Below the pieces are notes generated by a model. The model saw only the letters and a list, made by a program, of their open reading frames with translations, searched no databases and was not told the DNA's origin. From positions 1 to 64,000 of the forward strand of contig FOAY01000005.1 in assembly GCA_900109485.1 (NCBI GenBank): a DNA stretch of 64,000 nucleotides, read 5' to 3'. The stretch is from Kosakonia sacchari (GTDB lineage: Bacteria; Pseudomonadota; Gammaproteobacteria; Enterobacterales; Enterobacteriaceae). Within the stretch, counting starts at the first letter, position 1. Each line of letters starts with the position of its first letter. The position numbers were made by a program, and so were the translations under genes. Shown piece by piece: positions 4,658 through 64,000 of this stretch.

Positions 4658-4674
4658 CTCATTCAATAAAGACG

Positions 4675-4694
4675 GCCTCTCCGGCGGGAGAGGC
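4675..4694. terminator. Bidirectional terminator hairpin
   Basis: A perfect 8-bp stem GCCTCTCC/GGAGAGGC with loop GGCG lies between the convergent genes ending at 4657 (+) and 4705 (-). It has no long T tract on either strand. Confidence 0.6.
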
Positions 4695-4704
4695 TGGTAT
4701 CGTT

Positions 4705-5253
4705 TCACAGCGACGCGGCGGTGCGGGCGGCCGTATCGTAAAGGGATGAGATGGTGCGTAAAAGCTGCGCCGTTTCGCCAATGGATTGCCCCGGGATCCC
4801 GCTTTCTGCATGAATACTTATCAGGCAGGCTTCACGCACATCGCGGTATTTCATGCATAACGCTTTTCCTTCATCGGTAGTGGAGAAAAAGAGTTCCTTT
4901 CCGGCTTTTTCGCTCGTCACGTAGCCTGCTTTAATCAGCTTTTTCAGGGCGTAGGTCACCACATGCGTGTCTTCTACGTTCAGAACGAAACAGATATCTG
5001 CCAGCTTTTTCTTGCGATTGCGATGATTCACATGATGCAGAAGCGAAACGTCAAAAGCCCCCATATCAGGTTCACCTGCTGCGGTCATACAGCGCACCAT
5101 CCATTTGTTGAAGGCGTTGCTGGTCATGATCAATGCGTACTCCAGCTCCGATAATTCAGCGCAGCGTTCGGAAACCAGATGGCGTGAAGAGACGATACGG
5201 CCATCCGCAATATCGTCGCTATTCGTTGATGTAGCGCTCTTTTTTGAGTTCAT
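4705..5253 (-). CDS. Winged-helix transcriptional regulator, MarR-like
   Basis: A 182-residue protein with a central MarR-like winged helix. The segment AFDVSLLHHV then KLADICFVLNVEDTHVVTYA (about residues 65-105) fits the recognition region, and KKLIKAGYVTSEKAGKELFF is the wing. It resembles the COG5631 group of predicted regulators. The start at 5253 is chosen because TAAGGAA lies upstream at suitable spacing; a longer frame to 5319 has no such signal. It is divergent from the DUF969/DUF979 operon and is the obvious candidate regulator of it. Confidence 0.75.
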   Translation of the reverse strand: MNSKKSATSTNSDDIADGRIVSSRHLVSERCAELSELEYALIMTSNAFNKWMVRCMTAAGEPDMGAFDVSLLHHVNHRNRKKKLADICFVLNVEDTHVVTYALKKLIKAGYVTSEKAGKELFFSTTDEGKALCMKYRDVREACLISIHAESGIPGQSIGETAQLLRTISSLYDTAARTAASL

Positions 5254-5434
5254 AAGGTTCCTTACAGGAGTGTGACTCTTAGCCAAAAATGTAAACTGAA
5301 AGCGATAAAATAAGAACATTTTATTGATAAATCGTTTACATGTTTTTGCGGTTCAGATATAGCTTTTCATACCGGTTCTGTGAACACCGCAGGGCTGTCG
5401 CAATACACAACATCGCTCGCCGCAATGCACCACG

Positions 5435-5452
5435 CTTCGTTTGAATACGAAG
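5435..5452. promoter_or_regulatory. Inverted repeat upstream of DUF969 operon
   Basis: A perfect dyad CTTCGT-N6-ACGAAG lies 55 bases upstream of the DUF969 start, between it and the divergent MarR-like gene. It could be the operator for that regulator. No experimentally known motif is matched. Confidence 0.35.
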
Positions 5453-5506
5453 TATTAAAAAAATCGCCATCGGCGCGCAACGCTCACTTTAGATAGGGTA
5501 AACGTT

Positions 5507-6229
5507 ATGGACGGTTCTACACTGCTGCCACTTATCGGCATACCGATAGTGGTTATTGGTTTTGCACTACGCTTCAACCCACTGTTGGTGGTCGTTGTTG
5601 CAGGGCTGACTACCGGATTGTTAGTGGGAATGGATTTCGGGACGCTGCTGGAAACCTTTGGCGAAAAATTCGTCAATAGCCGCTCGCTGGCCACCTTTAT
5701 TTTGATCCTGCCGGTTATCGGACTGCTGGAGTATTACGGCCTGAAAGAGCGAGCGCAGGCCTGGGTGGCAAAAATTGCCAGCGCGACATCGGCACGTATT
5801 TTGATGCTCTATTTTGTCGCGCGTGAAGGAACGGCGGCGCTGGGGCTGATGTCGCTTGGCGGGCATGCGCAAACGGTTCGTCCACTGCTGGCGCCAATGG
5901 CCGAAGGCGCAGCGTTAAATGAATACGGCGAATTACCCCAACATATCCGCGACAAAATCAAAGCGCATGCCGCCGCGTGCGACAACATTGCAGTCTTCTT
6001 TGGCGAAGATATCTTTATCGCCTTCGGCGCGGTGTTACTGATCGATGCGTTCCTTAAGGAGAACGGAATTCAGGGGATTGAACCGCTGCATATCGGCTTG
6101 TGGGCCATTCCCACCGCGCTTTCGGCATTGATTATTCATATGACGCGCTTGCTGCGTCTGGATGCCAGCATCCGTCGCGACGTGATGGCATGGAAAGCAG
6201 AGCAGGGTACGCAGGAGATCGCTCAATGA
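5507..6229 (+). CDS. DUF969 membrane protein, putative 5-oxoproline transporter subunit
   Basis: A 240-residue polytopic membrane protein with hydrophobic segments at about 5-45, 60-80, 100-120, 160-180 and 190-215. It matches the DUF969 family, which is nearly always paired with DUF979, as here (ATGA overlap with the next gene). Public annotation describes the pair as a two-subunit 5-oxoproline (pyroglutamate) transporter. That function is taken from the family, not from residues seen here. No pyroglutamyl peptidase or oxoprolinase genes are adjacent. AGATAGGG sits upstream of the ATG. Confidence 0.8.
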   Translation: MDGSTLLPLIGIPIVVIGFALRFNPLLVVVVAGLTTGLLVGMDFGTLLETFGEKFVNSRSLATFILILPVIGLLEYYGLKERAQAWVAKIASATSARILMLYFVAREGTAALGLMSLGGHAQTVRPLLAPMAEGAALNEYGELPQHIRDKIKAHAAACDNIAVFFGEDIFIAFGAVLLIDAFLKENGIQGIEPLHIGLWAIPTALSALIIHMTRLLRLDASIRRDVMAWKAEQGTQEIAQ

Positions 6230-9679: not shown

Positions 9680-10852
9680 TTAAATTGTCGATGCATCTAT
9701 AACATAGCGATATCGCGCTTTCTTATTAAAAACGTTATCCCACGCCTCATTAATTTGATCAGCTTTAATAATCTGAATTGTGGGCAATATTTTGTTTTGT
9801 GAACAGTAATTAACCACTTCCTGAGTTTCTTTCATGCCACCTATCATTGACGCGTTGAAATTAACCCTTGATGCAGCAAGCCCAAGTGCATTAAGTGTAA
9901 TCTGAAAACCTTCAGGCATCCCGACTTGAGTGAATGTCCCGTATGGCTTCACGACTGATGCGTAGGCCGCGACATCATACTGATAGGGGATCGTGGATAT
10001 CATATAATCCAGCGTTCCCTGATAAGCTTTGAATTTTTCCGGGCTATCGACCACAATAACTTCTTTGGCCCCGAATGAAAGAATGTCGTCGGCTTTTGAC
10101 GGTGTGGTTGTAAAAGCGTATACCTCGGCTCCTTTGGAAACAGCAAGTTTTATGGCCATGTGGCCCAGACCACCAATTCCTGCCACTCCTACCTTCATGT
10201 TTTTGACGATACCTGCCTTCATGAGCGGGGAGTATGTGGTTATTCCTGCACACAGCAACGGTGCCGCTTCCTGAAAGCTGATGTTATCCGGAATATGGAC
10301 AGCGAAATGATCCCGTACCACGATGTTTGTGGAATATCCGCCCTGAGAAATTCCCGTCGGAGAATCATTTTCAGGGAAACCATATGTAAATACAGTAGCC
10401 GGGCTGTATTGTTCTGTATTCTCCAGGCTCATCAACTGTGAGTTTGGCAGCGTGCTGTTAACCATACATCCAACACCTGCTCTATCACCGACTTTAAACC
10501 GGGTGACATTTTTTCCAACCGCAGCGACAATGCCTACAATTTCATGTCCGGGAACCTGAGGGTACTTTTGAACACCCCAGTGTCCTTTCATCTGATGAAT
10601 ATCAGAATGGCAAATGCTGGCATATTTTGTCTCAATCAGAATATCGTTGTCGCCAACGGCTCTGCGTTCAAAGGACCAGGGTGCAAGTTTCCCCGAGGTG
10701 TCAAAAGCCGCGTAACCGCGCGTTCTCACTCTCGAACCATTTGTGTCTGCTGCAAGTGAACCAAGAGGAGTGCTCAGCAATACTCCTGCCCCAATTACCG
10801 CACCAGAACGAACAACAAACTCGCGACGGCTGAGATTCTTTTTATCATCCAT
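9680..10852 (-). CDS. Tat-exported zinc-type alcohol dehydrogenase, CAD/YahK-like
   Basis: A 390-residue medium-chain NAD(P)-dependent alcohol/aldehyde oxidoreductase preceded by a twin-arginine signal: LSRREF then a hydrophobic stretch ending in SLAAD (about residues 5-36). Catalytic zinc ligands are seen in SICHSDIH and PGHEIVG, and the nucleotide-binding motif in GIGGLGHMA. The four-Cys structural-zinc lobe of cinnamyl-alcohol-dehydrogenase relatives is absent; the corresponding segment reads GCMVNSTLPNSQLMSLE. The start at 10852 has AGGAG at ideal spacing; a further in-frame ATG six codons upstream overlaps that site. Probable aldehyde reductase whose export would place it in the periplasm, unusual for a cofactor-dependent enzyme. 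Confidence 0.82.
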   Translation of the reverse strand: MDDKKNLSRREFVVRSGAVIGAGVLLSTPLGSLAADTNGSRVRTRGYAAFDTSGKLAPWSFERRAVGDNDILIETKYASICHSDIHQMKGHWGVQKYPQVPGHEIVGIVAAVGKNVTRFKVGDRAGVGCMVNSTLPNSQLMSLENTEQYSPATVFTYGFPENDSPTGISQGGYSTNIVVRDHFAVHIPDNISFQEAAPLLCAGITTYSPLMKAGIVKNMKVGVAGIGGLGHMAIKLAVSKGAEVYAFTTTPSKADDILSFGAKEVIVVDSPEKFKAYQGTLDYMISTIPYQYDVAAYASVVKPYGTFTQVGMPEGFQITLNALGLAASRVNFNASMIGGMKETQEVVNYCSQNKILPTIQIIKADQINEAWDNVFNKKARYRYVIDASTI

Positions 10853-10928
10853 CAATATACTCCTGCTCATAAGTTTGACCGGGTTAGATTTCTGCTTCTG
10901 AAAGAGAGGCAGAATGTATTCTGGTAAG

Positions 10929-10942
10929 GACTGACGTCAGTC
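10929..10942. promoter_or_regulatory. 14-bp perfect palindrome upstream of dehydrogenase
   Basis: GACTGACGTCAGTC is a perfect palindrome 76 bases upstream of the dehydrogenase start, in the 299-base gap before the AraC gene. Its shape suits a TetR-type dimer, but no TetR gene is in the window. The rest of the gap is AT-rich and holds no recognisable gene. Confidence 0.5.
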
Positions 10943-11151
10943 AGAGAAACCTTTCTTAATTACCGCAGGATGCTAGTTGGTTTCTTCGGATAATCTGACT
11001 AAAGAGCAATTTACATACTTGCGGTAGCATAAAATACACAAATACGACAAATTATTTGCCCGATTCTCTGAATGCTTAATTTTGTTGTCATATATGCCTG
11101 ACAATAGCGCTATGTTAAAAATGCAGTTCGTGGCAATAGTTCGGTGAGATA

Positions 11152-12066
11152 TTAAAGCTCGCTGACTGACTTTCTCAGAACAGTGATATCCCTTTTAGGG
11201 GATAACCCAAACATCCTCGTATATTCACGGCTGAAATGGGATAAGCTTTCATAACCGACAGCAAATGCTGCGGTAGTGACATCATAGTGCTCATTCAGCA
11301 TCAGTCGTTTTGCCTCATTGAGTCTCAGCCATTTCTGGTAACGAAGCGGACTCATTCCAGCAAGTTGCCTGAAATGGTGATGAAAAGAGGGCGTACTCAT
11401 TTGCACCCGACTCGCAAGTTCCTCGATACGTAAAGGCGATGCAATATTGGTCTTTAACCAGTCAATAGCTTTGCCGATACGGTAGCCATTACCGTCTACG
11501 GCCGCAATCTGCCTGAGATGATCGGACTGGTCACTCATCAGAAGCCGGTAATGTATTTCCCGCTGAATAAGTGGGCCAAGAACCGGGATTGCTTCTGGCT
11601 CGTCAAGCAATGAAAGTAGACGGCAGAAAGGCTCTAGCAGAACATCAGTAACGGTACCTATTCCGACTCCTGCCCCGGTGTCTCTTTTTTTGGCTGGCGG
11701 CAGGCCTCCCTGTGCAATTAACTCCATCAATACGCGCTGATCGAGTTGATAGGCTATACCGACACAGGGCCGGGATGACGATGCTTTAAGCACTTCTGAA
11801 CTGGCGGGCAAGTCGAGAGACGTGATCAGGAATTTTTCCGCATCATATTTATAAGGCTCCCCCCCAATCCACATGATCTTCGCACCATCGACCACCAGAA
11901 CGACACTGGGAGGGACCAGGCAGCTTACTGGAGAAGCAGGTTCGTTCCGCCGGAATAATTCCAGTCCTTCTACTGCTGTGGGGAAATCACCGGTACCAGG
12001 CGTGCGCTGCGCGATATCCCGGGAAAGCGTCCCGAGTAAATCTTCAACCGATTTGTCCAAAACCAT
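11152..12066 (-). CDS. AraC-family transcriptional regulator, YqhC-like
   Basis: A 304-residue regulator with an N-terminal AraC_N-type sensing domain (about 20-180) and two C-terminal helix-turn-helix units (about 200-300). SPLRIEELASRVQMSTPSFH marks the first unit and VGYESLSHFSREYTRMFG the second. YqhC in E. coli activates yqhD in response to aldehydes. Here a YqhD-like gene lies 1.7 kb away on the opposite strand and an aldehyde/alcohol dehydrogenase lies downstream on the same strand, so the same logic is likely. CAGTTT/AAACTG (12111-12125) lies just upstream. Confidence 0.85.
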   Translation of the reverse strand: MVLDKSVEDLLGTLSRDIAQRTPGTGDFPTAVEGLELFRRNEPASPVSCLVPPSVVLVVDGAKIMWIGGEPYKYDAEKFLITSLDLPASSEVLKASSSRPCVGIAYQLDQRVLMELIAQGGLPPAKKRDTGAGVGIGTVTDVLLEPFCRLLSLLDEPEAIPVLGPLIQREIHYRLLMSDQSDHLRQIAAVDGNGYRIGKAIDWLKTNIASPLRIEELASRVQMSTPSFHHHFRQLAGMSPLRYQKWLRLNEAKRLMLNEHYDVTTAAFAVGYESLSHFSREYTRMFGLSPKRDITVLRKSVSEL

Positions 12067-13732: not shown

Positions 13733-14890
13733 ATGCAAAATTTTATTTTTCATAACCCTGCCAAAATTATTTTTGGCCATGATCAGATTTCCTCAATTGG
13801 TAATGAAGTTCCGGGTGATAAAACCGTAATGATTGTTTACGGCGGAGGGAGTGTTAACCGTAATGGCACGCTGAAAAAGGTACGGGATTCGCTGAAAAAC
13901 CATACGATTTATGAGTTCGGAGGAGTCCAGGCTAATCCACATTATGAAACGTTGATGGAAGCTGTTGCGCTTGTTAAGGATAAAGGTGTCAATTTTCTGC
14001 TTGCAGTGGGTGGGGGATCAGTTATTGACGGCACCAAATTTGTCGCGGCGGCTGCGTGCTATGACGGTGATGCCTGGGATATTGTTAAAAGTTACGGGAG
14101 CGTAGTGAAAAGGGCTTTACCGGTAGGTTGTGTACTGACCATTGCCGCAACAGGCTCAGAAATGAATAATGTCGCAGTTGTTACTAAAGCAGAAACAAAA
14201 GATAAGCTGTTTTTTGCCTCCCCGTACGTTATGCCACAGTTCTCGGTTCTGGAGCCTGAACTGACATTTACTTTACCCCCAAATCAGACGGCTAATGGTG
14301 TGGTTGATGCATTCGTGCATGTACTTGAGCAATATGTGACTTATCCGGTGAATGCCAAAGTACAGGATCGCCTGGCAGAAGGTCTGCTGAACACCCTGAA
14401 AGAAGAGGGCCCAAAAGTCCTGACAGATCCTGAGGATTATGATGCCAGGGCGAACATTATGTGGGCCGCAACGATGGCGCTGAATGGCCTGCTCAGTACG
14501 GGGACCCCCGCAGACTGGGCATCACATCTGATCGGACAGGAAATTACAGGTCTGTACGGCCTTGATCATGCCCGCACGCTGGCGGTAATGATCCCGGCTA
14601 TCTGGAAATACGCGCTGGCTGACAAGAAACAGAAACTTGCCCAGTATGGTGAACGTGTCTGGGATATACCGGCATCTGATACTGAAACGATGGCTCTTCA
14701 GGCTATCGACGCAACGGTCGCATTTTTCGAAACCATGGGGGTTAAAACCCGTTTATCTGATTATGGTCTGGGGGATGATATTATTCCGGCGGTAACCAAT
14801 AAACTGAAAGAACACGGCCATGTTGCCCTGGGTGAACATGCGAATATTACGACAGAGAAAGTAGAGGAAATACTGAAACTGGCGTTGTAA
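13733..14890 (+). CDS. yqhD: NADPH-dependent aldehyde reductase, YqhD-like iron/zinc alcohol dehydrogenase
   Basis: A 385-residue type-III (iron-containing fold) alcohol dehydrogenase, close in length and blocks to E. coli YqhD, which reduces short and lipid-derived aldehydes with NADPH. Cofactor loops are YGGGSVNRNG (about 37-46) and AVGGGSVIDGTKF (about 93-105). Metal ligands are visible in VVDAFVHVLEQY (Asp, His), in the following His of ASHLIGQE and in GLDHARTLAV. It is the last gene of the plus-strand redox set. Control by the AraC gene at 11152 is inferred from the E. coli yqhC-yqhD pair. An IS3-type scar begins 3 bases after its stop. Confidence 0.88.
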   Translation: MQNFIFHNPAKIIFGHDQISSIGNEVPGDKTVMIVYGGGSVNRNGTLKKVRDSLKNHTIYEFGGVQANPHYETLMEAVALVKDKGVNFLLAVGGGSVIDGTKFVAAAACYDGDAWDIVKSYGSVVKRALPVGCVLTIAATGSEMNNVAVVTKAETKDKLFFASPYVMPQFSVLEPELTFTLPPNQTANGVVDAFVHVLEQYVTYPVNAKVQDRLAEGLLNTLKEEGPKVLTDPEDYDARANIMWAATMALNGLLSTGTPADWASHLIGQEITGLYGLDHARTLAVMIPAIWKYALADKKQKLAQYGERVWDIPASDTETMALQAIDATVAFFETMGVKTRLSDYGLGDDIIPAVTNKLKEHGHVALGEHANITTEKVEEILKLAL

Positions 14891-54007: not shown

Positions 54008-54467
54008 AGTTTCCCCATTCCCCTATTCGCCGTCTGTGTAATCCCCCTGCAAAATATAATGTTTTTTTGACTGTTGTTGAGGCAATATTTAACGAATGCT
54101 GCTGTTTTGCTGATATTTGGCTGCGCAAAAAATGTAAACACATTAGCCCGCCATGTTAATGTTTCTATTTTTCATCGCTTAATTTTAAGGCTTTTATGCA
54201 TGGCTGGCTGGTAATTTAGCTTAAGGATTTACTTATAGCTGGTGAATTTTCATTTCATCATTTTTCTTTCGCAAAATCATAACAATATTTATCAACGGAA
54301 CGGTAAGCCTGACTTAAAAAATATTTATCACAGCTACTTTCCGTCGGCCTCAGGTTTGTGGAAAATGCATCGGTAATAACAACAAATCGACTGTCCGGTA
54401 AATTATAAAAAAAGCCATTACCGCGTCAGCAATACTTTTTGATCGCGGTATATTGTGGGGAATATTC
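54008..54467. other. AT-rich intergenic region before chemoreceptor
   Basis: These 460 bases are markedly AT-rich and hold no credible ORF. The chemoreceptor promoter must be here, but I could not find a convincing sigma-28 promoter at the usual spacing or a clear -35/-10 pair. An untranslated regulatory region is possible. Confidence 0.45.
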
Positions 54468-56006
54468 ATGAAGCGTAACACTCCTGTTACACAGAAAGAG
54501 TTTTTGCTTAACGATGGCACGACACTGTTGTCGACTACCAACACACACAGCCATATTACTTATGCTAACTCCGCTTTTATCGATGCCAGCGGATATAGCG
54601 AAGATCAACTTGTGGGTGAGGCGCATAATATAATTCGTCACCCTGATATGCCGCCTGCGGCATTTGGCGATATGTGGTCCACTATTCAGCAGGGAGACAG
54701 TTGGACCGGGATTGTTAAAAACCGCCGTCTCAATGGCGATCACTACTGGGTTCGCGCCAACGTCACCCCGGTATATCAGCAAGGGCAGCTCACCGGTTAT
54801 ATCTCGGTGCGAAATATCCCAACCCGTGAAGAAATTGACGCCAGCGCTGAACTTTATCAGCTGGCGAATGAAAACAAACTCCGCGGGCATCGTTTTTATA
54901 AAGGTCTGGTTGTTCGCCGGGGTTTATTTTCTTTTTTCTCGATCTTCCAGCGAATCAGTGTTTCAAAACGCATAAACCTTGGCACGATTATTACCGCCGC
55001 CCTGCTCGTTGCGCTGCAATTTGTTCCTTTCGATGCCGCAGAAAAAGCCGGAAGTGCAATTATTATATTAGGTTTGCTGTCAGTTTTTTTGCACAGCCAA
55101 ATATCTCGTCCGCTGAAAATTGTGCTGGAACAAATGCAGAAAGTGGTTTCCGGACGCGAGGGCGATTATGTGCGTTTTAATCGCGTGGATGAAATCGGTT
55201 TATTGATGCGTCTGGTTAACCAGGCCGGGTTAAATCTCAGTTCGCTGGTGGGCGATGTCTCGACACAAATCAACGGCATTCGTGTGATCAGCGGGCGCAT
55301 TTCCAGCGAGGGCGAATCCCTGCAACGCCGCACGGAAGAAACCTCCGGCGAACTGCATCAGACCGCCGCCGCTGTAGAAGAGATCGCCAGTGCCGTGCGC
55401 CAGACAGCGGAAACCGCTGCCGAAGCGATGGTCAGAGCGGATGATGCCAGCACCAGCGCGATGGAAAGCGGTAATGTGATGAAAAAAACGATCGGCATGA
55501 TGCAGTCTGTTTCTGCAGACAACAGCAAAATCGTCGATATCATTAGCGTCATCGACAGTATCGCCTTCCAGACCAATATCCTGGCGCTCAATGCAGCGGT
55601 GGAAGCGGCGCGCGCCGGGGAGTCCGGCCGTGGCTTTGCCGTGGTTGCCGCCGAAGTGCGCAATCTGGCGCAACACTCGGCCTCCGCCGCGCGCGAAATC
55701 CAGACGCTGATCGAGCATAACGTGGCGAACGTCAGGAGCGGTGTTGAGATGGTTGCCAATACGGAAACGCACCTGACAGCGATGATTGACAGCGTGATTA
55801 ACATGTCCACGATGATCAAAGAGATTAGCACCGCGACCAACGAACAGACGCAGGCGCTGGAGCTGATTAACCAGTCCGTTTCCCGTATTGGGACGATGAC
55901 CCACAACAACACGTCGATGGTGGAGCAAGTGACCAGCGCAGCGGAAGATCTTTCGGAACGCGCAGCCCGCCTGCATCGCGCGGTACATGTGTTCGGCGGT
56001 AGCTGA
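54468..56006 (+). CDS. PAS-containing methyl-accepting chemotaxis protein, Aer-like
   Basis: A 512-residue chemoreceptor without a periplasmic sensor. The cytoplasmic N-terminal PAS domain (about 1-115) has [20 protein letters not shown] and [13 protein letters not shown], as in the FAD-binding aerotaxis receptor Aer. A short hydrophobic hairpin (about 175-215) anchors it in the membrane; a HAMP-like region and a signalling domain follow, with the hairpin tip [21 protein letters not shown] conserved. It should report redox or oxygen state to CheA/CheW. GTGGGG precedes the chosen ATG. No CheR-tethering pentapeptide is present at the C-terminus. Confidence 0.88.
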
Positions 56007-56055
56007 TCAACACATGCTATAGTCGCTGCGGGCATTTTTGCGCAAAAGGCGAAGC

Positions 56056-57141
56056 ATGATGTTACTCAGAGCAGTACTGATTTTTATCCTGACGGCGGCC
56101 ACCTGTGCCGCCGCTTCTCTGCGTCCTCCCGCCGGATTTATGCAGCCGCCGGAACAAAAGGCTTCAGGCGATAAAGCGGTAAAGTGCCCGGATGTTCCCG
56201 CGCCGTTTACCCGCGTGCTCGATTTTCCCAGTAAATATGCAGGCTCCGACAGCGCCCGCGCCACGCTCAATCCGCAGGCCGATGCGGCGTTTCGCCAGCA
56301 GACGCAGCCCATCACCGATATGGAGCGCTATATCAGCCGTCAGGTCACCGCCTGGGCGCACAGCGGCAATGCGCAACATGTTGCCTGCGCGGTGGCTGCG
56401 CTGGATCAATGGGCCAGCGCGGGCGCGTTAACGGAACGCGCCAATAACCATACCGGCAGGTCAATGCGCAAATGGGCGCTGGCTACCTTCTCCTCCGCCT
56501 GGCTGCAACTGGAATACGCGCCGCAGCATCCGCTTAACGCTTATCCGGCACAGCAGCAAACGATTCAACACTGGCTGGGGAGCCTGGGGGATTTGGCCGT
56601 GAAGGAGTGGCATGATTTGCCGCTGGAGAAGGTTAACAACCATAGTTACTGGGCGGCCTGGGCGATTATCACCACTGCCGTGGTAACGCAGCGACAGGAT
56701 CTGTTCACCGCCGCGCTGGATATCTATCGCACCGCTATGCAGCAGGTGGATGACGAAGGCTTTTTACCCAATGAGCTGCACCGCCGCCAGCGCGCCCTTT
56801 CCTATCATAATTACGCGCTGCAACCGCTGGTGATGATCGCTCTGTTTGCGCGGGCGAACGGCATCGATGCGCTGGCGGAAAATCACGGCGCATTAAAACG
56901 CCTCGGCGTGCGGGTGATTGATGGGCTGGATGATGCCAGCGCATTTACGCAACGTACTGGCGCAGCGCAGGATATGGCGTTTTTGCAACATCCGACGAAC
57001 CTGGCCTGGCTGGAAGCCTGGTGTTCGCTGTACGCCTGTGACAGTGCGCTGAAACAGCGGCTGGCCAGTTTGCGCCCCTGGCAAAATACGCGTCTGGGCG
57101 GCGACCTGAGCCGTCTGGCCGGTGCCGCCAGAGCCGAGTGA
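56056..57141 (+). CDS. Secreted alginate lyase, PL5 (AlgL-like) family
   Basis: A 361-residue protein with a Sec signal peptide (MMLLRAVLIFILTAATCAAA). The mature part is an alpha/alpha-barrel mannuronate lyase: MRKWALATFSSAWLQL and the catalytic block VNNHSYWAAWAII (Asn-His, then Tyr as family catalytic residues) are present, plus ELHRRQRALSYHNYALQPL. It would cleave polymannuronate in the periplasm. No alginate biosynthesis genes lie in the window, so it may serve in scavenging plant-associated or biofilm alginate. The start at 56056 has AAGGCG upstream. It converges with the NIPSNAP gene 5 bases away. Confidence 0.85.
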   Translation: MMLLRAVLIFILTAATCAAASLRPPAGFMQPPEQKASGDKAVKCPDVPAPFTRVLDFPSKYAGSDSARATLNPQADAAFRQQTQPITDMERYISRQVTAWAHSGNAQHVACAVAALDQWASAGALTERANNHTGRSMRKWALATFSSAWLQLEYAPQHPLNAYPAQQQTIQHWLGSLGDLAVKEWHDLPLEKVNNHSYWAAWAIITTAVVTQRQDLFTAALDIYRTAMQQVDDEGFLPNELHRRQRALSYHNYALQPLVMIALFARANGIDALAENHGALKRLGVRVIDGLDDASAFTQRTGAAQDMAFLQHPTNLAWLEAWCSLYACDSALKQRLASLRPWQNTRLGGDLSRLAGAARAE

Positions 57142-57146
57142 ATCAA

Positions 57147-57944
57147 TTATTGCCCATTTCCGGCAATCGCCAGGTAGTCTGTATAGAGTTGCGGCGCGCC
57201 GGAGAAGGAGGCCATCGTGCGCCATTCGTCATACATGCGCTCTGTATCCTGGTGCGCTTTTACGAAGGAAAGCGCTTTTTCCGTGGAAACATCGAGCCCC
57301 GGATGGAATGAATTCAGCGAGTCGAGGCTTTCGATTTCCAGCATCACCGCATATTGCTCCTGTCGGTTGCCGCCCTGACCTTTCAGCAGATGGAACTTCC
57401 AGCCGGGATAATCTTCCACGCGGTGAATGTTATCGATAATAAATTGCTCAAAAGTTTGCGGTTTTACGCCAGCACGTAAGGCCAGATTATGAATACCCAC
57501 CACGCGTGAGCGCGGTTTTTGCCCGGCGACAACCTGATAATTTGGCCCTTCCGCCAGTGAGCTGTTGGTGTTCTCGGCGACCAACGAATAGGTGGTGAAA
57601 AGGGTCGGCAGTTCCGCAAAAGTGGCGTAGATTTTCCACTCGGCAATCAACGCCAGCGCCTGCGGGTGCTGTTGCCAGAAATTTTGCGCCTCTGCCGTTT
57701 GTTCGCCGTTCTCTGCGACATAACGGGCATAAAGCTGCAAATTCGGGGCTTCGTACAGCATCAGATACTGGTTTTCTCTCTCGCCGCGCAGCCCTTTCAG
57801 CAGCGTCCAGCGCCATCCCGGATAGGCCGGGATCTGCACGCCGCGCTGGCGGACAAACTCTTCAAAATCAGCCTCAGTAACGCCTTTCTTTAAATTCAGG
57901 CCGATGTAATGCAGGCTAAAAATAGCCTGAGATGCATTGTTCAT
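57147..57944 (-). CDS. NIPSNAP-like dimeric alpha/beta-barrel protein
   Basis: A 265-residue soluble protein made of two similar halves (about 5-130 and 145-260). The first half carries YPGWRWTLLKGLRGERENQY, the second YPGWKFHLLKGQGGNRQEQY, each followed by the strand that closes a ferredoxin-like barrel. Whole-length similarity to the C-terminal 267 residues of the radical SAM protein at 59141 is obvious by eye. The dimeric alpha/beta-barrel fold includes heme-degrading and cofactor-free monooxygenases and NIPSNAP proteins. It is the last gene of the minus-strand operon. Confidence 0.78.
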   Translation of the reverse strand: MNNASQAIFSLHYIGLNLKKGVTEADFEEFVRQRGVQIPAYPGWRWTLLKGLRGERENQYLMLYEAPNLQLYARYVAENGEQTAEAQNFWQQHPQALALIAEWKIYATFAELPTLFTTYSLVAENTNSSLAEGPNYQVVAGQKPRSRVVGIHNLALRAGVKPQTFEQFIIDNIHRVEDYPGWKFHLLKGQGGNRQEQYAVMLEIESLDSLNSFHPGLDVSTEKALSFVKAHQDTERMYDEWRTMASFSGAPQLYTDYLAIAGNGQ

Positions 57945-57976
57945 AAAGACTCCTTTCTTTCAGTGTTATCAATCAA

Positions 57977-59137
57977 TTACCGTGTGATGGCGCGCGCAAG
58001 CAGGCTTACCGCGAACAGGATCGCCACCCCGGCGCTGAACACGGCGACCAGGCTGGTATGCTGCGCGAAAACGCCAATTAATGCCGGGCCGCTTAACAGC
58101 CCGGCATAGCCAAACAGTGTCACCGCGGGCAGCGCAAAGTGCGATGGCACCGGCTGATTCCCCGCGATCGAGAAAAGAACGGGCACGATATTCGCCAGGC
58201 CCGCGCCTACCAGCGCAAATCCCGCCAGGGAAACGGCTGCACTATCAACCGACACCACCACCAGCAACCCTGCGGCGGCGCTTATTGCGCTGGCAATCAA
58301 CATTCGCAGATGGCCATAGCGATTAATCAGGCGATCGCCATACAGCCTCGCCAGCGCAACGGCGATGGAATAAAGCGTGAAACCAAACCCTGCCTGGTGC
58401 GTTGCCATCCGCCGCTCGCTGTGAAGAAAAACGGCGGACCAGTCGAGCATCGCGCCTTCGATCAGAAAGATAAAAAAGCACACGATGGCGATAAGCCGCA
58501 GACCAGGATGCGCCAGCGCCTGGCATGTGCCGCCTGCCGCGCCGCTCTGCTGCGGGCGTTTTGCTAACAAATGACCCGATGCCGCGAGGACGATAACCGC
58601 CATTGCGAATGCCACCAGAACGCTTGCATACCGTGGCGGCACATTTGCCCACAGCAGCAGGCTGATGCTTCCGGCACCGGCAATACAGCCGAAACTAAAA
58701 AAGCTGTGAAATCCGGCCATTCTCGCCTGCCCGGCTTCGCGCTCAACCACGACGGCCTGGCTGTTCATTGACACATCCAGCAGGCCGTTTGCCGCGCCAA
58801 AAAGCAGTAAAACCCCGCCCATGACGGCGGGGGAAGTGACAGACAGCAGCAGCGACAAGCAGACGCACAGCAGCAACGCGCAGCACAGGATCAACGCCCG
58901 GCAGCCAACGCGGTGGATCAAGCGGCCGCTGAACGGCATCGCCAGCATCGATCCTGCGGCCACACAAAACAGCAGCAAACCGAGCGCGCCATCGTCAAGC
59001 TGCAGCCCGCGCTTGACCAACGGGATCAGCGGCGCCCAGGCCGACACGCCCAAACCGGCAACCAGGAAAATCGCTCGCGTCGCGCGTTGTTGACGCAGAT
59101 TATCCGTCGGAAAAGCTCCAGAGAAATGACGCGTCAT
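57977..59137 (-). CDS. MFS transporter, YbjJ-like
   Basis: A 386-residue, 12-helix transporter. The N-terminal FLVAGLGVSAWAPLIPLVKR and the segment ANGLLDVSMNSQAVVVERE after helix 4 are hallmarks of the YbjJ/FucP-like group. It lies 3 bases after the radical SAM gene stop and 32 before the NIPSNAP gene, so it belongs to the operon and may export its product. No substrate is known. Confidence 0.83.
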   Translation of the reverse strand: MTRHFSGAFPTDNLRQQRATRAIFLVAGLGVSAWAPLIPLVKRGLQLDDGALGLLLFCVAAGSMLAMPFSGRLIHRVGCRALILCCALLLCVCLSLLLSVTSPAVMGGVLLLFGAANGLLDVSMNSQAVVVEREAGQARMAGFHSFFSFGCIAGAGSISLLLWANVPPRYASVLVAFAMAVIVLAASGHLLAKRPQQSGAAGGTCQALAHPGLRLIAIVCFFIFLIEGAMLDWSAVFLHSERRMATHQAGFGFTLYSIAVALARLYGDRLINRYGHLRMLIASAISAAAGLLVVVSVDSAAVSLAGFALVGAGLANIVPVLFSIAGNQPVPSHFALPAVTLFGYAGLLSGPALIGVFAQHTSLVAVFSAGVAILFAVSLLARAITR

Positions 59138-59140
59138 GGC

Positions 59141-61405
59141 TCAGGCTCCCCTGTTATCTTCGCCGGGCTGACTTTCGGCAACCGCCAGGTAATCGGTGTA
59201 GATCTGCGGCGAGCCGGAAAACGAAGCGAGTTGCTTCCACTCTTCGTACATCTGTTTGGTATCCCGGTGCGCTCTGGCAAAAATTGCCGCTTCATCGGTG
59301 GCGATATCGGGCTCCGGATAGAACTGATCCAGCGCCGCCAGGCTGGCGATCTCCATCATCACCACATATTGATCGAGCCGGTTACCGCGTTCACCTTTCA
59401 GCAAACGAAATTTCCAGTCCGGGTAGTCTTCAATGCGGTGATGATTCTCGGCGATGAAGGTCTCGAAGGTATGCGCTTCAACATCCGGACGCAGCGCCAG
59501 ATTGTGGATGCCAATAACCCGTGCTTCCGCCTCTTCACCGGGACGCTCGCGATAGCGCGGGCCGTCGGGGACGGTGCTTTTTTTATTTTCTGCCAGCAGA
59601 CGGTAATCGGTGTAGATCGTCGGCAGCGCGCTAAATGTTCCCAGACGCTGCCATTCACGCAGGATCTCTTGCGCCTGCGGACGATCGCGCCAGAACTGGC
59701 GCGCCAGCGGCGTGAGATTGCCGTCGGTGCGCTGATAGCGATCGCGACATTCCGCGCTTTCAATTTCGTACAGCATCATAAATTGCCCGGCGCGCTCACC
59801 GCGTAAACCGCGCAGCAATGTCCAGCGCCACCCCGGATAACAAGGGATCTTGCAGCCTTTTTCGCGGACAAACGCTTCAAACTGTGCATTGGTAACACCA
59901 GCTTCGGTATCAATCGCAATGTAATAGAGGCTAAAAACCGGTGCCGGTACGTCCGTATTTGTCACAGGCAACCTCCTGATGTCGCCAGAAGAAAATTGAG
60001 TGTTGATGAGCGCTTCAACCAGCGTCACGCCGTTTGGCGTGAGCGTGACGACATCATCGCGCACGGTGAACAGAGTTTTCGGGGTTAACGTCTTCAGCGC
60101 GCGGCAGATAAACGGGTTGCTGAAAAAGCTGCGCCCGTCAAAGCGTTTTCTGAATTCGTGATTGCATACCGGACGTAAGGTCGACAGCGCCATTTTGAAC
60201 GCATTCACTTCACGCTGCAGCGGAGAAAAGCCGTGGCTGCTGTCGATGGGCAGTTCTCCTTCGTCAAGCGCGGCCTTGTAGCGCCGGTAGTCCGTGATAT
60301 TAATAGCTTCCGCCAGCGAACATTTGGAGCTGCCGCCGAGACCAATGGCCACTTCCGGGTACTGCTTATCCAGATCGGTAATCAGCCCCTTCCATTTTTC
60401 TGCGGGCTGCGTGTTGCGGTGGAAATACATGGTGGGATGCTCGCGGTAATCCGCTGCGAGATAGCGTTCAATCAGTTCCCGCATCTGGTACTGCTTGCCC
60501 AGCCCCGGAAACGCCTGGCTGTTAGCCCCCTTTTTCTGCCATAAACTTTGCCGCTGCCCGGAGACGCCCGTGCGTCGCTTCATAAACTCCGCGAGGTGCA
60601 GTTTGGTGCAGACGACATGAGAAATCGCCAGTTCACGGCATTTTTCCATGTCGTATTTCACATCATCAACGCTTTGCCCCGGCAGACCATAGATCAGGTC
60701 GATGCTGATCCAGTCAAAACCCACTTCGCGCGCGTTAGCGATGGTTTGTTCGCAGGTTTCGGCCGTATGCCTGCGCCCGCAGGCGGCGATGATCTCATCG
60801 TTGAACGACTGAACGCCGAAACTGATTTTGCTGAACCCCAGCGTTTTAAGCAGCTCCAGATAGGCTCTGGTCAGCGTTGCCGGTTCGCCTTCAAAACGCA
60901 GCGTGGCGGCAGAAAGGTTGAAGTGCTGCCGGTAAAACGCCATCAGGCGCTGTAGCTCCGCCGCGGGCAACAGCGACGGTGTGCCGCCGAAAATGTTAAA
61001 TTCCCCCACTTCCGCCCCGGCAAGCGCGGGCACCTTATCAAGCCACAGAGCGGCTTCCTTGATGTTGTAATCCACCAGTTGCCGAAAAACCGCCTGCGAG
61101 GGCGCGCTCTGCGGATTGAGGATAATGGTCGGGAACTGGCAGAAATGGCAGCGGTAGCGGCAGGTTGGGATCGACACCCAGAGGTGGATCTGCTTCGCCT
61201 GTGCGATGTCGTGCTCCATGTCCTGGAAATATGCTTCCAGCGGGTAGTCTTTAATGTCGCCAGGAAAAACATGGCAGCCGAAGGGGTCGCGGTAAACATA
61301 CTCAAGGAAATCGCGGTTTTCGGGCGAAGCGAGAAAATCGTACACCTGCGGAACCGGATAGCGCGGATCGAGATCGTTGAGCGAGTCGAACAGAATATCG
61401 TTCAT
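59141..61405 (-). CDS. HemW-like radical SAM enzyme fused to NIPSNAP-like domains
   Basis: A 754-residue protein. Residues about 20-480 are a HemN/HemW-type radical SAM enzyme: CRYRCHFCQF gives Cys82, Cys86 and Cys89 for the 4Fe-4S cluster and lacks the fourth Cys of true HemN; FNIFGGTPSLL, FGVQSFNDEII and DLIYGLPGQS are the expected SAM-binding and barrel blocks. A HemN_C-like region with FSPLQREVNAFKMALSTLRP follows. Residues about 488-754 are two NIPSNAP-like domains homologous to the free protein at 57147. Such a fusion is not a standard heme-biosynthesis enzyme. The ATG overlaps the upstream glycosyltransferase stop (ATGA). Substrate unknown. Confidence 0.85.
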   Translation of the reverse strand: MNDILFDSLNDLDPRYPVPQVYDFLASPENRDFLEYVYRDPFGCHVFPGDIKDYPLEAYFQDMEHDIAQAKQIHLWVSIPTCRYRCHFCQFPTIILNPQSAPSQAVFRQLVDYNIKEAALWLDKVPALAGAEVGEFNIFGGTPSLLPAAELQRLMAFYRQHFNLSAATLRFEGEPATLTRAYLELLKTLGFSKISFGVQSFNDEIIAACGRRHTAETCEQTIANAREVGFDWISIDLIYGLPGQSVDDVKYDMEKCRELAISHVVCTKLHLAEFMKRRTGVSGQRQSLWQKKGANSQAFPGLGKQYQMRELIERYLAADYREHPTMYFHRNTQPAEKWKGLITDLDKQYPEVAIGLGGSSKCSLAEAINITDYRRYKAALDEGELPIDSSHGFSPLQREVNAFKMALSTLRPVCNHEFRKRFDGRSFFSNPFICRALKTLTPKTLFTVRDDVVTLTPNGVTLVEALINTQFSSGDIRRLPVTNTDVPAPVFSLYYIAIDTEAGVTNAQFEAFVREKGCKIPCYPGWRWTLLRGLRGERAGQFMMLYEIESAECRDRYQRTDGNLTPLARQFWRDRPQAQEILREWQRLGTFSALPTIYTDYRLLAENKKSTVPDGPRYRERPGEEAEARVIGIHNLALRPDVEAHTFETFIAENHHRIEDYPDWKFRLLKGERGNRLDQYVVMMEIASLAALDQFYPEPDIATDEAAIFARAHRDTKQMYEEWKQLASFSGSPQIYTDYLAVAESQPGEDNRGA

Positions 61406-62679
61406 CAGAACACCCCTCCGTTGGCAAAGTAGTTGTGCGCCATGCCGGATTCACGATCTTCGCTGAAATAGCGGACAAATCGCTGAAAATCTTCGCTTTT
61501 AACGTACTCAAAACAGGCCGGAAGCGGCGGCGGAAAACCGATATCCTCGCCGACCGCGCGGCGCAGCGCGCTGAAAATATCGTCACGAAACTCGAAATAC
61601 AGCCGGTAGGCTGGCGTTTTGTAGGCATGAATCGGGCTCAGATCGATCAGACGCATCTCATGGAGAATTTCATAGATACGCCGGAACAGACGTTCGGCGA
61701 CTTGTGGGGTAAAAAATTCGCGAACGGCGTGATTGTCCAGCAGGATTTGCGGGTTGAGTAACGCCGGTAGCACAATGTTTTTCGGCACATAATCCTTGAT
61801 CGAATAGTGCCAGGCCTGCAATGACTGGGCGGCGGTGGTATCCCTTAACGCCGGTTGCTGTGTGTTTTCCGGACGGACATCTTTCATAATGATGACGCCA
61901 TCCTGCCCGTAGGCGACGCCGGTTATCACCTCTTGCAGGATGGTATCCACGCGGCGACTGTTAATTTCAACCCGGGAATTGTGGGCGTAAACGGGTTTAC
62001 CGCCCGCCGCGATCACCCGAATACCGAAATCCCAGTCATCCGAAAGATGCTCGACAAACCGGCCCTTATCAAGCTGATAAAAGATTTCGATACCGCCCAC
62101 TTTGTCGTAAAGTGCGCGTTCAACGGCAAACCCCTTGCCATCGGGAAAGCCACCAAACAGCGAAAATGAGACCTCACGGCAACGCAGCGTTTTCTGAATC
62201 TCCGCAAACAGATTGGGGCGAAGCCGGAACGCGTTCTCGTTGTAGTAGTAATTACAGGTGCCTAAATCGCCGTTTTCCGCGATCATTTTTTCAATCAGCG
62301 AGTGTAGCCACCAGCTATCAACGGTGCAGTCGGCATCTGCCGAGACGATGTAGTGTTTGCGGCTAATGCCCAGCCGTTTGTCCCGGGCTTTTGAGCGCAG
62401 CGATGCGTAATCCATCCCGCATTTTCTTGCAGAGGAAACACCCTGCGTGGGCTCTTTAATGATATGAATATCCAGCGCCGGATGCAGACGCTGAAATTCG
62501 CTGATTTTGGCAACGGAATCATCGGTGGAATTATTATCCACAACGATCAGTTCATACTTTTCATGCGACAACATATTGCTGCATGTTTTTTGATTAAATA
62601 ACGAAGTGAGAACCGCATCGATACGATCGCTTTCGTTATAGACCGGCAAAACAATTGATATGTAAATGTCCTTACGCAT
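61405..62679 (-). CDS. Family 2 glycosyltransferase
   Basis: A 424-residue GT-A glycosyltransferase. The N-terminus has IVLPVYNESDRI and VVDNNSTDDS for the nucleotide sugar. The metal-binding DxD reads SADADC (about 114-119), and DDWDFGIRV suits the acceptor-side acidic motif near 225. No membrane helix is present, so it is likely cytosolic with a small-molecule or peptide acceptor rather than a polysaccharide synthase. GGGAGG lies before the ATG at 62679. It overlaps the upstream glycosyltransferase by 8 bases and the radical SAM gene by 1. Confidence 0.85.
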   Translation of the reverse strand: MRKDIYISIVLPVYNESDRIDAVLTSLFNQKTCSNMLSHEKYELIVVDNNSTDDSVAKISEFQRLHPALDIHIIKEPTQGVSSARKCGMDYASLRSKARDKRLGISRKHYIVSADADCTVDSWWLHSLIEKMIAENGDLGTCNYYYNENAFRLRPNLFAEIQKTLRCREVSFSLFGGFPDGKGFAVERALYDKVGGIEIFYQLDKGRFVEHLSDDWDFGIRVIAAGGKPVYAHNSRVEINSRRVDTILQEVITGVAYGQDGVIIMKDVRPENTQQPALRDTTAAQSLQAWHYSIKDYVPKNIVLPALLNPQILLDNHAVREFFTPQVAERLFRRIYEILHEMRLIDLSPIHAYKTPAYRLYFEFRDDIFSALRRAVGEDIGFPPPLPACFEYVKSEDFQRFVRYFSEDRESGMAHNYFANGGVF

Positions 62680-64000
62680 ACAACCTCCCTGAGTGATTAC
62701 TATCTGAATTGCTGCTCTCATCGATGAGCACTTTCTTGCCAATAAGAAAGTTTCGATAAGCAATTTCTTTCATTAATGATTTATTGGTGATGAGCTTAAA
62801 GACGCTGGAAATAAACGCATCGTCCGGGTAACCATCATGTTCGGCAGTGATATTCATTATCGGTGCCTCAAAGCCGTATTGTCCATATACTTCATCGTAA
62901 TATTCATATCGTGTCGAAATGTAACAACGACGGTGACTAATGGCTTCACCAACAGGATTACCGTAGCTGTCGTAGTCCCATGAAGTCAGAAAGGAGACAA
63001 GGTCACAGGAATAATACAAATCCTCAACGGTGTGAGCGTTATAACCATGCGGCATATAATTGTGCTGCAGCCAACCAATAAAATGAATAAAAGGCACGAT
63101 CTGTAATTGAACCGACAGATTGACCAGTTGCTGATAACAGGATGGCGCCTCATTAATATCGCCAGCAATGACGAGATGAACACGCTGTGCAGAATTGTTC
63201 TGCCGGAAAAGTCGGTTGAGTCGCCAGACGAGGTAAATATCGCGATCCAGCCGTTTTTGCGGAATAATTCGCGTGGTTCGGGCAATAAGAATGTCATCGC
63301 TGCCAATGCTAAGACTGTGCCTGATATCGCTGCAATCTCCTGTTTCTGTAAAATCGTATGTGTTCTTTTTTACTTGTACTTCAATGGTATAGTTGCACCA
63401 CTCCTCAAGTCTGTCTTTTAATTCCTGATTAAGCGTCACATAGCGTATATACGGAGAGTTAACCGGTTTGATGGCATGCGGCCAGGGGTGTGTGCCATAT
63501 TTCTGTACGCTTTTTTCGCTATTCCACATCAGGTCATGGTCACGCCAGGTAACAAAATCGCCTAGGTTATAACGCTTACCATATATATCAATTGCTAAAT
63601 ATATCGCTTTTGTATATATAATGTTTTCCGGCAGTGTGCCATTTTCAACAAAAAGATAACCAATATTCAGACGTTCCCATTGCTGTACCATTTTTTCAGC
63701 CAACACTTCAGCCGCGACATCAATTTTCGCCAGAATAGTATTTAACTCCGCTTGTGGGACAACAGTTTTCTGACTTATCAATACATTGTGCGAATAATTT
63801 ATAAAATCAACGTTGTAATTCGGTACGCTGGTAATGTCATCTATTCGCACTAATATAAAAGCATCTTTATATATCGATTTCTCCCATTCGTATGGTTTAT
63901 TGAATTTTCCTTTATCCAGCTTTATGTCATAACCAAGATTAAGATAATTTTTAATCCCCTTTTGTGAGAGTAACCGTGCGGTTTTAAATGCCTCAACAGT
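62672..64000 (-). CDS. Glycosyltransferase, GT-B fold (5' end outside window)
   Basis: The frame is open to the right edge of the window, so at least 442 residues are present and the start is missing; the GTG at 63850 is internal. The visible N-terminal part includes AFKTARLLSQKGIKNYLNLG, a GT-B-type segment. The C-terminal half has the GT4-like series LIARTTRIIPQKRLDRDI, HLVIAGDI, FIHFIGWLQHN and NPVGEAISHRRCYIST, the last with the conserved Glu of the donor site. Base use is more AT-rich than in the downstream genes of the operon. Its acceptor is unknown. Confidence 0.8.
   Translation of the reverse strand, partial: TVEAFKTARLLSQKGIKNYLNLGYDIKLDKGKFNKPYEWEKSIYKDAFILVRIDDITSVPNYNVDFINYSHNVLISQKTVVPQAELNTILAKIDVAAEVLAEKMVQQWERLNIGYLFVENGTLPENIIYTKAIYLAIDIYGKRYNLGDFVTWRDHDLMWNSEKSVQKYGTHPWPHAIKPVNSPYIRYVTLNQELKDRLEEWCNYTIEVQVKKNTYDFTETGDCSDIRHSLSIGSDDILIARTTRIIPQKRLDRDIYLVWRLNRLFRQNNSAQRVHLVIAGDINEAPSCYQQLVNLSVQLQIVPFIHFIGWLQHNYMPHGYNAHTVEDLYYSCDLVSFLTSWDYDSYGNPVGEAISHRRCYISTRYEYYDEVYGQYGFEAPIMNITAEHDGYPDDAFISSVFKLITNKSLMKEIAYRNFLIGKKVLIDESSNSDSNHSGRLYA

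Follow-up and report, generated by a model that had tools for sequence, protein, structure and literature searches.

Gene content of the Kosakonia sacchari locus

The window analysed here, a 64,000-nucleotide stretch of Kosakonia sacchari (positions 1 to 64,000 of contig FOAY01000005.1; part of contig C14 of the source genome, G000), closes at its right end with an operon encoding two glycosyltransferases, a radical S-adenosylmethionine (SAM) enzyme fused to a barrel domain, a transporter and a second barrel protein. Reading of the open reading frames (ORFs) bore out the original prediction of five minus-strand genes with overlaps or gaps of at most 32 bases, which lie along the coordinates as the barrel protein ABM2 (57147-57944), a major facilitator superfamily (MFS) transporter (57977-59137), the radical SAM fusion (59141-61405), the glycosyltransferase GT2 (61405-62679) and the glycosyltransferase GT-B (62672-64000 in the window). 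A 32-base gap separates ABM2 from the MFS gene and a 3-base gap the MFS gene from the fusion; the fusion overlaps the end of GT2 at 61405 by one base, and GT2 overlaps the end of GT-B at 62672 by eight bases if it starts at 62679. The ATG at this position is most likely the start of GT2 (424 aa), because its methionine is invariant in 19 aligned sequences. In the order of transcription, the parts are GT-B, GT2, radical SAM, ABM1 (the barrel domain of the fusion), the MFS transporter and ABM2. The operon had been expected to continue past the right edge, which proved correct for the GT-B gene itself, starting at contig position 64138, 138 bases outside the window, and encoding 488 aa. No further operon gene lies 5' of it, as about 310 bases are followed by a divergent small gene and a second gene, which we take to be sra/rpsV and a maeA-like gene. 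In 1-kb windows, GT-B and its upstream region show a G+C content of 38-42% and the rest of the operon 53-61%, with the flanks mostly like the latter apart from one dip to 43%. Rfam gave no match at gathering scores across 11 kb.

The GT2 protein matched PF00535 with 81.8 bits (Pfam cut-off 23.3), and both aspartates of its DxD motif (D143-A-D145 of the 452-aa ORF) were invariant in 19/19 aligned sequences. The GT-B protein of the window reached 20.1-20.3 bits with the best Pfam group-1 glycosyltransferase model, below the cut-off of 27; its identity to 19 relatives is 48-72%, and PF00534 and PF13692 were recognised in 10/20 and 7/20 aligned members, respectively (E up to 0.001). The radical SAM core (59966-61405) scored 80.8 bits with PF04055 (cut-off 29.5), and the three cysteines of its CxxxCxxC motif, C82, C86 and C89 of the fusion protein, were invariant in 21/21 sequences. 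The enzyme had previously been described as HemW-like, which the NCBIfam models do not support, since it scored under the curated cut-offs for HemW (TIGR00539, 109.8 bits vs. 205.4), HemN (TIGR00538, 105.4 vs. 324.95), ChuW/HutW (TIGR04107, 103.6 vs. 400), HemZ and STM4012; it is referred to here as HemN-type. The MFS transporter (386 aa) scored 86.8 bits with PF07690 against a cut-off of 33.4. A defence system was considered and rejected, as PADLOC gave just weak partial matches of the radical SAM core.

In NCBIfam, GT2 has several polysaccharide enzymes among its best relatives, and a mannuronate-specific alginate lyase gene (56038-57141; NCBIfam 456.4 bits against a cut-off of 429) lies downstream, convergent with the operon. 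Both would fit glycosyltransferases that extend a surface polysaccharide or lipid-linked glycan, with the radical SAM enzyme decorating the glycan. This explanation seems unlikely to us, as the conserved unit is devoid of flippase, polymerase and lipid-carrier genes, its transporter is a single MFS protein, and sightings of the lyase next to the cassette were confined to the window's genus, other loci not having been checked for it. An alginate lyase also adjoins the cassette in locus L040, judged by the start of its sequence.

Conservation and distribution of the cassette

A search for related loci returned 74 loci (75 with the window), and comparison of their neighbourhoods showed that the genes are conserved together, with their order kept across lineages. 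The full order GTB-GT2-rSAM-ABM1-MFS-ABM2 (rSAM, radical SAM) characterises most Pseudomonas loci and those of Serratia, Cedecea, Enterobacter, Ewingella, Kosakonia and Duffyella, and Pseudoduganella has the same parts with GT-B moved to the end. The Lonsdalea and Pantoea loci have neither MFS nor ABM2, P. fragi (L058) has no ABM2, and the three-enzyme core of GT-B, GT2 and radical SAM stands alone in Paraburkholderia, Cupriavidus, Sinorhizobium/Ensifer and Rhizobium, on large plasmids where it could be placed. The two glycosyltransferases share one frame in 35/55 loci and are split in 16 (window included), four being undecided. Ten plasmids carry the GT2 gene, all from plant-associated genera or sources by our reading of the listing, and six of them were typed as conjugative. 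The cassette is nevertheless rare, since a class-wide survey found it in 1/369 genomes, that of the source alone. The conservation of these genes as a unit most naturally points to a dedicated pathway that employs both glycosyltransferases, the radical SAM enzyme and the transporter. Other recurrent neighbours, such as short-chain dehydrogenase/reductase- and ATP-binding cassette (ABC) ATPase-like groups, looked like large common families, judged by sequence or position, or were shadows of the cassette genes and were given no weight. Genes resembling chemotaxis receptors occur near the cassette in 12/75 loci (L002 at 4453-6006, which is 54453-56006 of the window, L044, L048, L094, L027, L063, L051, L053-L055, L040 and L041) and in Duffyella (L098, 17080-18366); such genes are abundant and their presence may be due to chance.

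Radical SAM enzymes, glycosyltransferases and exporters occur together in some clusters for ribosomally synthesised and post-translationally modified peptides, and a precursor gene had been suspected nearby. The outer ends of the cassette were scanned for it in 19 loci from 18 lineages, leaving out the short intergenic gaps. The 700 bases beyond either end contained 448 ORFs of 15-120 aa in all, and a single cross-lineage pair among them reached E 0.001, 16 aa long and located downstream in Serratia and upstream in P. fragi, which was taken as chance; the 25-aa ORF beside GT-B is not conserved in sister genomes. A precursor peptide was rejected, as no small ORF is conserved at a matching position near the cassette ends, and a ribosomal peptide that is modified and glycosylated by these enzymes is thus largely refuted and highly improbable.

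The barrel protein ABM1 follows the core even where the two are not linked. In the source family, close matches to the radical SAM core occur in 8/198 genomes, and these are also the 8/8 genomes with an ABM among the matches listed (hypergeometric p 2e-14). In Streptomycetaceae, core GT2 was found in 5/249 genomes and ABM1 in 2/249, both inside those five (p 3e-4), and in Pseudonocardiaceae the numbers were 24/200 and 6/200, all inside those 24 (p 2e-6); these three values overstate independence, as the compared species are related, and are optimistic, since the draw centres G215 and G219 and three other genomes were known beforehand through ABM1. In actinomycetes, ABM1 stands by itself, with up to 84% identity to its window counterpart, and in 8/8 tested ABM1 genomes there is, elsewhere, a GTB-GT2 gene in one frame and a radical SAM gene. 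GT-B, GT2 and radical SAM are 39-42%, 56-58% and 46-49% identical there. Actinomycete ABM1 was probably acquired separately from the core, because its identity is far higher than that of the core parts and the two are unlinked. In Streptomyces sp. HNM0575, the stretch around ABM1 (L068, 4999-15352) has a third-position G+C of 0.67-0.72 vs. 0.92-0.93 around the core and is possibly an acquired island, and in a Nocardia-labelled genome ABM1 adjoins a transposase. As ABM1 was always accompanied by the core in the genomes tested, and the core often occurs without ABM1, the barrel protein probably acts downstream of the core product.

The foremost competing explanation is that ABM1 and ABM2 provide self-protection by binding a toxic product, with the core alone being biosynthetic and MFS-ABM2 forming a pair for efflux and immunity. 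No ABM was found anywhere in 10/10 genomes searched (of eleven such loci) that we take, from their names, to be those of legume symbionts, so that an ABM is not needed for the core product; ABM1 can be unlinked from the core, and MFS and ABM2 occur by themselves, as a pair, on a plasmid of Pantoea dispersa with no GT2 on that record (the chromosome was outside the search). However, immunity genes would normally also occur in non-producers, and there was no close ABM match without the core among the 198, 249 and 200 genomes of the three families. The plasmid pair may also be half of a split pathway: Pantoea wallisii carries the core and ABM1 on one contig and a second ABM (ABM2) on another, and P. 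dispersa DSM 30073 has the core and ABM1, neither P. dispersa genome having been searched whole. Each of the four Lonsdalea genomes has a single ABM. That ABM1 is fused to the radical SAM enzyme in one clade also speaks against self-protection, as it suggests a catalytic partner. We give this rival perhaps one chance in four.

Barrel proteins, gene fusion and turnover within the genus

ABM1 and ABM2 are paralogues with 52-53% identity, and both are duplicated alpha/beta-barrel proteins, ABM2 standing alone. The AlphaFold model of ABM2 (mean predicted local distance difference test score, pLDDT, 90.3) shows a duplicated ferredoxin-like alpha/beta barrel whose halves are 32% identical over 110 aa, and the alignment revealed many invariant Trp, Tyr and Arg residues of the family's own. 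The predicted barrel fold agrees with what had been proposed for this protein, the family not being clear, as fold matches spread across many barrel families. The label NIPSNAP, previously attached to both barrel proteins, is unsupported: Pfam (which presumably holds a NIPSNAP model) and NCBIfam listed no such model for either one at E up to 10 and 0.001, respectively, although HMMER filters may hide weak matches. NIPSNAP structures were not seen among the fold matches either, which carries no weight, and a profile search of the PDB with the barrel proteins gave chance-level matches only.

In the 42 other loci where radical SAM and ABM1 genes lie side by side, a stop codon precedes ABM1 in every case (42/42), several of these loci being from the same or related strains and the stop of L093 sitting within a disrupted radical SAM frame. 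In the window this stop is gone, and what remains is an AGGAGG at 59977-59972 (59972..59977 on the minus strand), the likely former ribosome-binding site of a once-separate ABM1 gene, and a GTG at 59965, likely its old start; ABM1 thus spans 59141-59965. The same frame of 754 codons runs without interruption in two congeners, G226 and G230, which are 95-96% identical to it, with the AGGAGG kept in G226 and degraded in G230. The ratio of nonsynonymous to synonymous substitution rates (dN/dS) between the fused congeners is 0.06-0.16 for the radical SAM core, the linker with ABM1, GT2 and MFS. Judged by these comparisons, the fusion is genuine, under purifying selection and local to three genomes of the genus, because two congeners share it, dN/dS is low and the other loci have the stop. 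An assembly artefact was ruled out by the congeners, and the stop in 42/42 loci likewise rules out the fusion as a defining feature of the cluster. The fusion announced in the original prediction is therefore real, its NIPSNAP identity unsupported. Two neighbouring pairs are thus fused somewhere, GTB-GT2 and, in the clade of the window, rSAM-ABM1. In G226 (L125, about 4756-6218), GT-B is frameshifted in the assembly although the reading frames of the fusion, GT2 and MFS are open, and in Pantoea wallisii (L093, about 10001-11437) the radical SAM gene matches in two frames and may be broken in the assembly.

Gain and loss of the cassette were evident among the 15 genomes of the genus. Three carry the fused form (window, G226 and G230), four have the unfused genes at the same place in the chromosome by coordinates, G233 carries a divergent copy elsewhere, and 7/15 have no cassette; at E 1e-60, the radical SAM core and ABM were both present in 8/15 genomes and both absent from 7/15. 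In G223 (L124 = G223:C6:1390000-1406500, about 13840-14130), about 130 bases separate the alignable flanks, which themselves contain some 86 bases from the end of ABM2 and 46 from the beginning of GT-B. Since these remnants of ABM2 (3' end) and GT-B (5' end) persist, the cassette was probably lost from this genome by deletion. G227 (L127, 2656-9756) has an unrelated gene set at the same site, presumably encoding a phosphotransferase system (PTS)-like protein and a GntR-like regulator. The site beside sra/maeA may be an insertion hotspot. The nitrogenase gene marker nifH was detected in the source genome (G000:C22:71733-72557) and in 10/15 genomes of the genus, three of the positive genomes having a second nifH-family match. 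A link with nitrogen fixation within the genus was not used as evidence: the shared-site copy occurs in 7/10 nifH-positive vs. 0/5 nifH-negative genomes (Fisher p 0.026), and inclusion of the divergent G233 copy gives 7/10 vs. 1/5 (p 0.12).

Proposed product and comparison with known systems

The neighbours of the cassette offer a lead, not proof, towards the nature of its product. Among 128 loci of all kinds searched, TreB and/or TreC genes of the trehalose PTS, which serves trehalose uptake, adjoin the cassette in 10 loci of three lineages. In Duffyella, treB and treC lie directly upstream on the same strand, with treR divergent; in the Pseudomonas argentinensis/flavescens group and relatives, the tre genes are likewise upstream in the same orientation, with an intervening PTS enzyme I gene; and in Pantoea they are downstream and convergent. 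TreB scored above the curated trehalose cut-offs in all three lineages, and TreC did so in both proteins scanned (L053 and L039). The chance of at least three tre-adjacent sites is about 0.0002-0.001, assuming a rough 0.5-1% per site and about 22 independent sites by our own count. In Pseudochrobactrum, GT-B lies 15 bases after the last gene of an ABC-transporter/ThuA/Gfo-Idh-MocA operon, which we take to resemble thuEFGKAB, and GT2 and the radical SAM gene match in pieces only. Left out of the count were a TreC-like gene near the core in L110, which scored under the trehalose cut-off, the 26% TreR matches in L107 and L108, and generic ABC-ATPase matches.

Expression data were available for Paraburkholderia phymatum, whose homologues are BPHY_RS38020 (Bphy_7706, radical SAM) and BPHY_RS38025 (Bphy_7707, GTB-GT2). 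In bean nodules of a nifA mutant, Bphy_7706 and Bphy_7707 showed log2 fold changes of -4.07 (17-fold lower) and -4.98 (32-fold lower), compared with -4.88 for nifH (Bphy_7808) in the same table (PMC8305402, Table 1), and in rpoN-mutant nodules the value for Bphy_7707 was -3.6 (PMC5979394). In the sections consulted of these two papers both genes appear as table rows only, and no other open-licence full-text paper naming them was found. The hemerythrin-domain gene Bphy_7704, with a log2 fold change of -5.92 in nifA-mutant nodules in the consulted table (PMC8305402), follows the core in P. phymatum (L100, 16974-17534) and in four related loci (L045, L046, L047 and L097). Plausible sigma-54 sites were observed in Sinorhizobium-type loci. 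FNR/Anr boxes were also sought upstream and set aside as too weak, with 24 sites (up to 2 mismatches) vs. about 10 expected across 49 non-independent loci and one perfect box, in L060.

Taken together, the chances appear evenly balanced that the cassette is a pathway, exchanged horizontally, for a metabolite that is exported, radical-modified, glycosylated and possibly related to trehalose. The unit and its order are conserved, ABM1 co-occurs with the core in all genomes tested, the local fusion is real, and the fused genes are under purifying selection; the chemistry, the order of steps, the export and the trehalose link are what we infer from this. Starting from primary metabolites, the core would assemble a small glycosylated molecule, the glycoside being modified in the radical SAM step; ABM1 would work on or with the radical SAM product, as partner or finisher, the MFS protein would move the final product across the membrane, and ABM2 would bind, finish or sequester it. 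The small glycosylated, radical-modified and exported product of the original prediction is thus upheld as far as a conserved, dedicated unit with glycosyltransferases, radical SAM enzyme and transporter is concerned, its chemistry and export being conjectural. The prediction also withstood its own refuting condition, since the neighbourhood comparison did show the genes to be conserved together. Its statement that no known pathway matches also stands, as no characterised homologous cluster was found in the open-licence full-text literature, which omits most subscription journals.

Several points weigh against this metabolic pathway. The profile search of the PDB with GT-B gave no relative at E 0.01, and in the AlphaFold model of the fusion the radical SAM part is poor (mean pLDDT 65.5), probably owing to a misaligned mixed alignment. 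The tre genes adjoin the cassette in three lineages only, and the window itself has no tre gene, a generic ABC ATPase being the sole match. The dependence on NifA may be indirect, because nitrogen fixation is absent from nifA-mutant nodules; inspection within 800 bases in P. phymatum yielded no convincing sigma-54 promoter, and the 500 bases upstream of the window operon were free of exact NifA sites and of sigma-54 sites at up to 2 mismatches. To these are added the MFS-ABM2 pair of P. dispersa and the optimistic co-occurrence values already mentioned.

A more far-reaching proposal is a new class of radical-modified, trehalose-related sugar metabolite at the plant-bacterium interface, shared through mobile DNA by legume symbionts (which would make it in nitrogen-fixing nodules), plant colonisers and actinomycetes, with the duplicated barrel as a new kind of partner for HemN-type radical SAM enzymes. 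We hold this to be rather unlikely as a whole. The cassette is in any case a compact, testable pathway, with three core enzymes and a distribution pointing to plant hosts, and if the proposal were true, nodules might contain an unrecognised bacterial sugar metabolite. It would also define ABM1 as a partner protein, found with the core in every genome tested even when unlinked and fused to the radical SAM enzyme in one clade.

The nearest solved structures to the radical SAM core are NocN (PDB 9p2u), a HemN-like radical SAM enzyme of natural-product biosynthesis, and HemN (1olt), coproporphyrinogen oxidase, aligning over about 210-225 residues at profile E values of 3e-27 and 9e-24, respectively. 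Unlike in these enzymes, the HemN_C domain was recognised in only 1/21 members, and the partners are two glycosyltransferases and barrel proteins; the relation to class C radical SAM methyltransferases consists of overall similarity to NocN. For the ABM2 model, the best fold match was 2pgc (Z 14.9, root-mean-square deviation 3.2 over 194 residues), followed by other tandem dimeric alpha/beta barrels such as sulfur oxygenase reductase, PenE, HmoB and chlorite dismutase/HemQ, with identities of at most 16%; the ABM proteins themselves match no Pfam or NCBIfam family. These kinships could suggest the handling of heme or tetrapyrroles, by a ChuW- or HemN-like radical SAM enzyme with heme-binding or heme-degrading barrels, as raised previously: the fold matches HmoB of the IsdG/HmoB heme-degrading family (4jou; Z 10.0, 15% identity, a likeness of fold alone) and chlorite dismutase/HemQ (Z about 8-9.6), and Duffyella has a gene annotated as a heme-binding protein about 5.7 kb downstream. 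We regard this as very unlikely, however, as nothing positive goes beyond the shared superfamily and the broad fold match. The ChuW/HutW and HemN scores fall far below their cut-offs, the top fold matches (2pgc, sulfur oxygenase reductase and PenE) are not known to be heme proteins, heme metabolism offers no evident task for two glycosyltransferases, and no tetrapyrrole gene was seen in the other annotated plasmid neighbourhoods, neighbours elsewhere not having been named systematically.

Returning to a glycosylated metabolite, the sole NCBIfam model touched by the part of GT-B in the window was that of mannosylglucosylglycerate synthase (NF041101), itself a GT-B enzyme, at E 3e-6. GT-B differs from it in scoring 26 bits against a cut-off of 640 and in often sharing one frame with a GT2 domain. 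A further parallel is offered by the rhizopine genes (mos) of Sinorhizobium, which are nodule-expressed small-molecule genes controlled together with nitrogen fixation. The P. phymatum core, whose expression falls in nifA-mutant nodules, can be likened to them by analogy; unlike the rhizopine setting, the cassette is also found in bacteria that are not legume symbionts.

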